Assembly: GCA_003278365.1 (NCBI GenBank)
Contig: QCFS01000012.1
Location: 1 to 42,210, forward strand
Length of the DNA: 42,210 nt
Source of the DNA: Prochlorococcus sp. AG-363-M17
GTDB lineage: Bacteria > Cyanobacteriota > Cyanobacteriia > PCC-6307 > Cyanobiaceae
Direction: 5' to 3'
A program made the position numbers and the translations under genes. The notes under the pieces are model-generated. The model worked only from the letters and a program-made list of their open reading frames with translations. It was not told the origin of the DNA and did no database searches. Below, piece after piece: positions 23,204-25,732 of this stretch (the stretch's first letter is position 1; each line of letters starts with the position of its first letter).

Positions 23204-24136
23204 ATGTTCGCAAGCGTTGTTATACCCACTTACAATCGCCGATCGATCCTTGAAAAGTGTCTTTCTGCTTTGGAACAGCAGGTCTTGGCATCTCAAGATG
23301 ATCAGTATGAAGTTGTTGTTGTTGATGATGGTTCTACTGATGGGACACCTCTTTGGCTCCGTGAAAACGCTTTAAGGTTTCCTCATGTGCGCTTGTTTGA
23401 GCAGGAACATGCTGGACCTGCCAAAGGAAGAAATTTAGGGGTTGATAAAGCTGATGGAGAAGTAATTGTTTTTATTGATAGTGATCTTGTTGTTACCAAG
23501 TCTTTCCTTGCAAACCATTTGAGGTCACTAAGTGCTTCCTGGCATCGTCGGGGAGACAGGCTTTGCTTTACGTATGGCTCAGTAATTAATACTGCAAATT
23601 TTGAACACCCGACATCTGAACCAAGTAAAATCCAGGATCTTTCCTGGGCATATTTTGCTACAGGCAATGTGGCTATAGATAGGAGCTTGCTCGAACAGTC
23701 CGGTTTGTTTGATACAAGCTTTTGTCTTTATGGTTGGGAAGACTTGGAGTTAGGAGAAAGACTCCGGCAACTTGGTGTTGAGTTGATTAGATGCCCTAAG
23801 GCAAAAGGTTATCACTGGCATCCTCCTTTAAAGCTTGAGGACATTCCAAAACTGATTCGCGTTGAAAAAGAACGATCAAAAATGGGACTTGTGTTTTTTC
23901 GGAAACATCCAACCACTAGGGTTCGTTTCATAATCCAGTTCACTTTGTTGCATTTACTCTTATGGGAGATGCTCACCATTGGTGGAGTTATCAATGAACG
24001 ATCACTTAGACCATTGCTGGCTTGGTTGATACGTAAAGGTAGACCTGGCCTTGCAATGGAGCTTTTACGAATTCCATTGAATCGTATTGGTGTTAGAGCT
24101 CTTTTTCGAGAAGCTTCTTCAATTGGATTTTCCTAG
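23204..24136 (+). CDS. Family 2 glycosyltransferase
   Basis: 310 residues from ATG 23204 (a TTG two codons earlier is possible). GT-A fold: SVVIPTYNRR at the N-terminus, VVDDGSTDGTP (first Asp of the nucleotide-sugar site), GPAKGRNLG, the DxD-like VFIDSDLV and the late acidic pair in YGWEDLELGERLR that serves as base. It transfers an activated sugar to an unknown acceptor; a role in envelope polysaccharide or lipid glycosylation is likely. A hydrophobic C-terminal stretch (FIIQFTLLHLLLWEML) could contact the membrane. Confidence 0.9.
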   Translation: MFASVVIPTYNRRSILEKCLSALEQQVLASQDDQYEVVVVDDGSTDGTPLWLRENALRFPHVRLFEQEHAGPAKGRNLGVDKADGEVIVFIDSDLVVTKSFLANHLRSLSASWHRRGDRLCFTYGSVINTANFEHPTSEPSKIQDLSWAYFATGNVAIDRSLLEQSGLFDTSFCLYGWEDLELGERLRQLGVELIRCPKAKGYHWHPPLKLEDIPKLIRVEKERSKMGLVFFRKHPTTRVRFIIQFTLLHLLLWEMLTIGGVINERSLRPLLAWLIRKGRPGLAMELLRIPLNRIGVRALFREASSIGFS

Positions 24137-24185
24137 CTAGGCAATTTGTTAGATTATTGGATCAACTCACAACGCACACCTGTCC

Positions 24186-24258
24186 GTTTCGGGTGATGTT
24201 GACTTTAAACTCTTAGTAGTTTTTCAACGTCCCAGGCGGGTGGAGGCGAACCCGAAAC
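24186..24258 (+). promoter_or_regulatory. Structured mRNA leader upstream of rpsB
   Basis: GTTTCGGGT (24186-24194) is a perfect 9-bp complement to ACCCGAAAC (24250-24258), which ends 10 nt before the rpsB ATG. Inside it, ATGTTGA/TCAACGT (24196-24202 with 24224-24230) encloses AAACT/AGTTT (24207-24211 with 24218-24222). CCC/GGG (24231-24233 with 24238-24240) forms a second arm. Together they make a three-way-junction-like fold next to the start codon. The only GGAGG (24242-24246) sits between the arms and the closing strand, so folding could control translation. Autoregulation by S2 is inference. Confidence 0.55.
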
Positions 24259-24268
24259 CCTAACAAAC

Positions 24269-24961
24269 ATGGCTGTAGTTACACTCTCCGAGATGATGGA
24301 GGCAGGTGCTCATTTTGGGCATCAGACAAGAAGATGGAATCCAAAGATGTCTCGATACATCTATTGCGCCCGGAATGGAGTCCACATTATTGATTTAGTC
24401 AAGACAGCTGTATGCATGAACAATGCGTACAAATGGACTCGCACAGCAGCAAGGAGTGGAAAAAGGTTTCTTTTTGTTGGCACAAAGAAACAGGCATCTG
24501 AAGTTGTTGCGCAGGAAGCAACTCGATGTGGAGCTGCTTACGTGAATCAACGTTGGCTTGGTGGGATGCTTACTAATTGGACAACTATGAAAGCAAGGAT
24601 TGATCGCTTGAAAGATCTTGAGCGCATGGAGTCAAGTGGGGCCATCGCTATGCGACCTAAAAAGGAGGCTGCTGTTTTAAGAAGAGAGCTTGAAAGGCTC
24701 CAGAAATATTTAGGAGGATTGAAAGGAATGAGAAGACTTCCGGATGTTGTTGTACTGGTAGATCAACGGAGAGAAACTAATGCTGTACTTGAGGCTAGAA
24801 AACTAGACATTTCGTTGGTTTCTATGCTTGATACCAATTGTGATCCTGATCTTTGCGAGGTACCTATTCCTTGTAATGATGATGCGGTGAGGTCTGTTCA
24901 GCTTGTTCTTGGCAGACTAGCTGATGCAATAAATGAAGGTCGCCACGGCTCCAATGAATAG
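24269..24961 (+). CDS. rpsB: 30S ribosomal protein S2
   Basis: 230 residues. [27 protein letters not shown] at the N-terminus, the middle FVGTKKQA and the [10 protein letters not shown] block are diagnostic for bacterial S2. The C-terminal part carries [19 protein letters not shown]. It is followed after 114 bp by tsf, the usual partner. ATG at 24269 sits after a structured leader with no Shine-Dalgarno at normal spacing. Confidence 0.98.
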
Positions 24962-25075: not shown

Positions 25076-25732
25076 ATGTCCGATATTTCAGCGAAGTTAG
25101 TCAAAGAATTGCGCGACAAAACTAGCGCAGGAATGATGGACTGTAAAAAAGCCTTAGTGGAAACTGGTGGCGATATGACCAAAGCAACAGAATGGTTGCG
25201 GCAGAAAGGCATAGCTAGTGCAGAAAAGAAATCTGGACGTGTCGCTGCAGAGGGGGCAATAGGTAGTTACATCCATACAGGCGCACGAGTTGGTGTGCTC
25301 CTTGAGTTGAATTGTGAAACAGATTTTGTAGCTCGTGGTGATTTATTTCAGGGCCTTCTTAGAGATGTGGCTATGCAAGTAGCCGCTTGTCCAAATGTTG
25401 AGTACGTGAATACAGATGAAATTCCTGAGGAAGTAGTTCAAAAGGAAAAGAACATTGAAATGGGTAGAGATGATCTTTCTGGAAAACCTGATGAGATTAA
25501 AGAAAAAATTGTTCAGGGGAGAATTGGTAAGAGATTAAAGGAATTAGCACTTATGGAGCAGCCTTTCATTCGTGATAGCTCTTTAACTGTTGCTGAGTTA
25601 GTTAAACAGGTGGCTGGACAAATAGGAGAGAATGTAAAAGTACGTAGATTCACAAGGTTTACTCTTGGCGAAGGTATTGAGGTTGAGTCCACAGATTTTG
25701 CTTCTGAAGTAGCTTCCATCTCCGGGGGTTAG
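25076..25732 (+). CDS. tsf: Elongation factor Ts
   Basis: 218 residues, the short cyanobacterial/plastid form. The N-terminal UBA-like domain has [38 protein letters not shown]. The EF-Tu-contacting core has [35 protein letters not shown]-Ts recycles EF-Tu by exchanging GDP for GTP. ATG at 25076. The stop is 24 bp before the next gene, so downstream genes may share its transcript. Confidence 0.98.

Follow-up and report, generated by a model that had tools for sequence, protein, structure and literature searches.

The 'rpsB motif' was described by Meyer et al. 2009 (PMC2704228). In the text of that paper, the motif comprises the stems P1, P2 and P3 and a pseudoknot, its carriers include Alpha- and Gammaproteobacteria, Cyanobacteria and Firmicutes, P2 is missing or very short in Cyanobacteria, and Prochlorococcus appears only as a genus of the ocean survey (PMC2704228). 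In E. coli, excess S2, aided by S1, represses rpsB-tsf translation through the leader, as reviewed in PMC10931766; the S2 operator there does not contain the ribosome binding site, which leaves the mechanism unclear (PMC10931766). A preliminary description of the present locus had noted this S2-dependent control of E. coli rpsB, and had left open whether the cyanobacterial fold was already described: it was, as a family that includes Cyanobacteria (PMC2704228). More broadly, the leader would share the general principle of autogenous control with a set of 20 candidate ribosomal leaders (PMC7247131), a paper whose main text lacks the terms uS2, t44 and 'cyanobact' and has rpsB once, in an L13 table row. 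A full-text search of the literature found the term 'rpsB motif' only in PMC2704228, and searches for rpsB together with Prochlorococcus or Synechocystis brought up nothing that, by title or opening of the abstract, dealt with the S2 leader of a cyanobacterium. The leader family, Cyanobacteria included, is already known; what is new here is its streamlined picocyanobacterial form, with a 9-bp pseudoknot and no Shine-Dalgarno sequence.

We give a probability of roughly 0.8 to the reading that the rpsB leader of Prochlorococcus sp. AG-363-M17 is a member of this rpsB motif/S2 leader family, in which excess S2 would stabilise the pseudoknot, block initiation and repress both rpsB and tsf.

The rpsB leader and its fold

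In the window (the whole stretch of DNA analysed, 42,210 nt), a glycosyltransferase gene ends at 24136, and the 132 nt from there to rpsB contain a promoter-like box and a structured leader. Single-cell genomes of Prochlorococcus are the closest relatives, their S2 being up to 99% identical. The features of the locus are as follows.

24147-24155, + strand: extended -10 promoter box TGTTAGATT (TGnTAnnnT), predicted transcription start about 7 nt 3' (~24162)
24177-24184, + strand: 5' strand of P1 (CACCUGUC), 8/8 pairs with 24235-24242; covaries
24186-24194, + strand: 5' strand of the pseudoknot helix (GUUUCGGGU), pairs with 24250-24258
24195-24231, + strand: P3 hairpin arm, 24195-24202 with 24224-24231 and, inner, 24207-24211 with 24218-24222
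24235-24242, + strand: 3' strand of P1 (GGCGGGUG), 8/8 pairs with 24177-24184; covaries
24242-24249, + strand: GGAGGC linker from P1 to the pseudoknot strand; conserved, not a normally spaced Shine-Dalgarno sequence
24250-24258, + strand: 3' strand of the pseudoknot helix (ACCCGAAAC), 10 nt 5' of the rpsB ATG
24269-24961, + strand: rpsB, ribosomal protein S2 (Pfam Ribosomal_S2, PF00318, 2e-90)
25076-25732, + strand: tsf, elongation factor Ts (PF00889, 1.9e-34), presumed second gene of the operon

By the known rpsB-tsf arrangement, the two genes are presumably co-transcribed. In all 86 picocyanobacterial loci a TGnTAnnnT box stands no more than 50 nt before P1 (shuffled mean 7.4, maximum 15), at a distance of 15-20 nt in 84 of them and of 5 and 14 nt in one each. 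Of 60 loci from other cyanobacteria, 54 have the box in this range too (shuffled mean 3.3, maximum 8), mostly 15-20 nt away. A generic sigma-70 scan found no promoter. Since the predicted start (~24162) lies 5' of the fold, and hence of position 24200, the transcript should include the entire fold. A transcription attenuator was considered and ruled out, as a terminator-like site is absent near the leader.

The preliminary description had proposed a three-way junction formed by a 9-bp closing stem, a 7+5-bp arm and a 3-bp GC arm. The structured leader of rpsB is real, but the junction gives way to a pseudoknot. The 9-bp complement (24186-24194 with 24250-24258) exists with every pair standard, and constitutes the pseudoknot helix, while the 7+5-bp arm, likewise with every pair standard, is P3; all pairs of P1 in the window are standard as well. 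P1 interleaves with the 9-bp stem in the order A-B-A'-B', and the topology is therefore that of a pseudoknot. P1 had been overlooked because the 73 nt then considered (24186-24258) begin downstream of its 5' half; the conserved element begins at about 24173, not at 24186.

A junction lacking P1 is indeed the minimum-energy fold of these 73 nt, and two of its helices, P3 and the 9-bp stem, are genuine. We nevertheless hold it to be extremely improbable: when the leader is extended to 24173 the minimum-energy fold includes P1 (-25.5), and the GC arm both loses its third pair in 44 of 47 relatives and uses bases of the strongly covarying P1, which excludes it. Energy alone does not prove any fold here, as the z score of the 73 nt is only -1.67 (-23.3 versus -17.95 for shuffled sequences, sd 3.2) and 13 of 200 shuffles fold as well; it is conservation that supplies the proof. 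The energy fold also contained an extra CGC/GCG helix outside P1, which we set aside since, by eye, its second pair becomes A and C in, for example, L021 and L032 of the picocyanobacterial alignment.

In the relatives (80 read), the block takes the form CGCACAcCUG-nn-GUUUCGGGU-hairpin-CCnGnCAGGUG-GAGGC-nA-ACCCGAAAC. The gap between P1 and the pseudoknot strand is 1 or 2 nt in 86/86 picocyanobacterial loci, and the P3 arm differs in length among relatives. In one leader of a lake cyanobacterium (L042:829-1001) the P3 arm is much longer than usual.

Conservation, distribution and the E. coli counterpart

Covariation was evaluated in two separate alignments, after a mixed one was discarded because it misaligned the pseudoknot strand of picocyanobacteria with that of the other leaders. 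Of the 82 distinct picocyanobacterial leaders the first contains 47, hand-picked starting from a diversity list (L005 and L042 are among those omitted). The second contains 42 of the 49 leaders parsed by then from other cyanobacteria, leaving out L093, L095, L112, L124 and L137, which have long arms, plus L128 and L135. P1 cells are paired at 96.8% in the former, where 4 of 8 pairs change on both sides, and at 98.5% in the latter, where 7 of 8 do; RNAalifold finds P1 unaided in the set of 42. Across the 86 picocyanobacterial loci (82 distinct), P1 has 8/8 pairs in 68 and 7/8 in 18, and its pair 7 occurs as all six standard pair types. For the four basal pairs of P3, 83.0% of cells are paired and three of the four show both-sided changes. 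In both alignments the covariation score of the whole structure is higher than that of any of 500 shuffles or of the six slid registers; the shuffles ignore relatedness, which the slid registers keep, and the shuffle figure is not a probability.

The pseudoknot helix is formed by 9/9 pairs in 86/86 picocyanobacterial loci and is nearly invariant there, the only change being a one-sided U-G in 3 of 47 rows, so that support for the pairing comes from deeper cyanobacterial lineages. Its inner six pairs are intact and invariant in 49/49 other cyanobacteria. In one order, seven of eight leaders (L149 was unparsed) form an 8/8-pair pseudoknot from CUACGGGU and ACCCGUAG, with U-A replaced by A-U, and all four leaders of one genus form UGGGU/ACCCA, with C-G replaced by U-A. 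Compensatory changes of the kind for which the preliminary description had proposed to align relatives are thus present in P1 and, in deeper lineages, in the pseudoknot. In L150 and L162 the pseudoknot is down to four contiguous pairs; by eye, a one-base bulge would permit more. Judged by this conservation, the leader before rpsB is a genuine structured RNA with pseudoknot topology.

GAGG stands 3' of P1 in 82/82 distinct picocyanobacterial leaders, and in the 49 others the linker reads GAGG in 45 and AAGG in 4. We consider the GGAGGC linker (24242-24249) a probable recognition element. In two lineages (L129 and L143-L148; L131, L157, L158 and L161) GGAGG is replaced and P1 and the pseudoknot are kept; as a recognition element the linker would therefore not be universal, and such lineages are useful for identifying what S2 recognises.

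The distribution of the leader was explored with a covariance model, R2, built from the 42 non-picocyanobacterial leaders and applied to 156 genomes from the phylum. It matched 68 of them at E <= 0.01. The matches with E < 1e-7, in 64 genomes, all adjoin rpsB (coordinates compared by eye), and the remaining weak ones lie away from it. R2 matched 61 of 63 genomes of the same class outside the family of our genome; the two exceptions (G085 and G089) match weakly when the rpsB upstream stretch alone is searched (L129, E 0.008; L131, 2e-5). At genome scale, R2 left unmatched our own genome and two of the five others of its family, and a local search of the window gave 32.1 bits. The picocyanobacterial model has a single match in our genome, the rpsB leader (80 bits), the window being among the sequences from which that model was built. 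All of 20 further leaders from two orders match R2 (E 4e-26 to 0.025), some of them being close to members of its alignment. No convincing R2 match emerged from 20 upstream stretches outside the class, and one of three others gave a match (L140, E 3.5e-4).

Two observations from other rpsB upstream regions may be added. A family of the same phylum outside the photosynthetic class is without the S2 leader and has its own conserved block in the last ~100 nt 5' of rpsB, CCGTAGTA, invariant in 11/11 loci (L167-L169, L171-L174, L176, L177, L179, L180), possibly a different leader. In genome G036, a glutamine riboswitch (RF01739, 43.3 bits) lies on the opposite strand a few hundred bases 5' of rpsB (L088:389-445).

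How does this leader compare with those already described? As in the rpsB motif, it lies upstream of rpsB, with a covarying P1, a variable P3, little or no P2 and a pseudoknot from the junction to the 3' side of P1 (PMC2704228). The pseudoknot is given there as five pairs outside Firmicutes, whereas all 86 picocyanobacterial loci have nine, and the picocyanobacterial leaders, unlike the described motif, are without a downstream Shine-Dalgarno sequence. The E. coli S2 operator (t44, RF00127) likewise has CAC...GUGGAGGC and an 8-bp P1 (CACGUAUC/GAUACGUG), a UUGGGGU/ACCCCAA pairing of 7 bp, arranged as in the cyanobacterial leader, and the GGAGG linker element; its Shine-Dalgarno-like GAGG lies well 3' of the fold, unlike in picocyanobacteria. 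Rfam classifies t44 as an sRNA gene; its match directly before rpsB in L082 identifies it as the E. coli rpsB leader. On the window t44 scores 15.4 bits, below its gathering score of 44 bits, and R2 scores 11.4 bits at the homologous place of the E. coli operator, both cross-matches being under normal thresholds. None of 19 non-E. coli loci scanned reached 44 bits, compared to 83.5 bits for the E. coli control, and an Rfam 15 scan missed all the cyanobacterial copies scanned. With the same order of elements and the same place, the leader corresponds in cyanobacteria to the S2 operator of E. coli.

This likeness also bears on what recognises the leader. Recognition by EF-Ts, by a small RNA or by a ribonuclease instead of S2, or control of mRNA stability, would be conceivable since EF-Ts is encoded in the operon too and S2 repression is demonstrated for E. 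coli only, but topology and place match the S2-responsive E. coli leader, and we regard this explanation as improbable. The suggestion of an autoregulatory leader in the preliminary description is retained, then, without its three-way junction: an S2-type leader accounts best for the place, the covariation, the E. coli topology and the published motif.

The start region and the proposed control by S2

The preliminary description had noted that the fold ends 10 nt 5' of the rpsB ATG and that the sole nearby GGAGG (24242-24246) is within it, 22 nt from the ATG; both statements are accurate. None of the 86 picocyanobacterial loci has GGAG, GAGG or AGGA in the stretch from the pseudoknot strand to the start codon; at least one of these is present there in 62/62 parsed loci of other cyanobacteria. 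Among the ten loci left unparsed (L143-L146, L148-L150, L155, L158, L162), nine have GGAG or AGGA 5' of the start by eye, L149 being excluded. With a looser set that adds AAGG and GGAA, 9 of 86 picocyanobacterial loci score, at least six of them having the pseudoknot strand ACCCGGAAC. The absence extends to other genes. Counting Shine-Dalgarno 4-mers before long ORFs, whose starts are uncurated, we obtained 2/32, 1/15, 1/14 and 1/14 in four picocyanobacterial stretches, no more than the background of 0.09-0.12, and 5/14, 3/11, 3/17 and 3/14 in four other stretches, more than the background of 0.05-0.10. To judge from these ORFs, Shine-Dalgarno loss in picocyanobacteria is not peculiar to rpsB.

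Could the fold instead serve to activate? By bringing the GGAGG, linearly 22 nt away, near the start codon, it might aid initiation, as the conservation of GGAGG and the lack of any other Shine-Dalgarno sequence 5' of the ATG in picocyanobacteria would suggest. However, E. coli and the other cyanobacteria have both GGAGG and a separate Shine-Dalgarno sequence, so GGAGG is not retained as a Shine-Dalgarno; moreover, picocyanobacterial genes show no Shine-Dalgarno enrichment, and the 9-bp helix would separate GGAGG from the ATG. We consider activation of this kind quite unlikely, slightly more so than a recogniser other than S2.

Under the repression by S2 that we favour, and which for cyanobacteria is drawn from the E. 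coli case, S2 in excess of free 30S subunits would bind the P1/GGAGG/pseudoknot region and stabilise the pseudoknot. With 10 nt between the pseudoknot strand and the ATG, the stabilised fold would cover the landing site of the ribosome; translation of rpsB would thereby be repressed, and the repression would carry over to tsf. The E. coli operator is reported not to include the ribosome binding site, so this occlusion step is one that we infer for cyanobacteria. In one order, the pseudoknot strand extends into the Shine-Dalgarno sequence itself (ACCCGUAG then GAG). Picocyanobacteria might have a distinct form of the leader, with the Shine-Dalgarno sequence lost after the fold and the pseudoknot extended to an invariant 9 bp next to the start region, in which S2 directly blocks a Shine-Dalgarno-independent start, a proposal that we put forward only tentatively and think somewhat less likely to be right than wrong.

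In conclusion, this leader is ordinary in kind and represents a lineage-specific variant of the start region. The cyanobacterial S2 leaders scanned go unflagged by Rfam, and S2 leader control very probably operates across oxygenic cyanobacteria, marine Prochlorococcus included. Because the pseudoknot adjoins the start region in cyanobacteria, a direct occlusion mechanism, the step that is unclear in E. coli, becomes testable there. If the tentative proposal is right, the picocyanobacterial form, together with the order in which the pseudoknot runs into the Shine-Dalgarno sequence, would settle for cyanobacteria the mechanism left open in E. coli.
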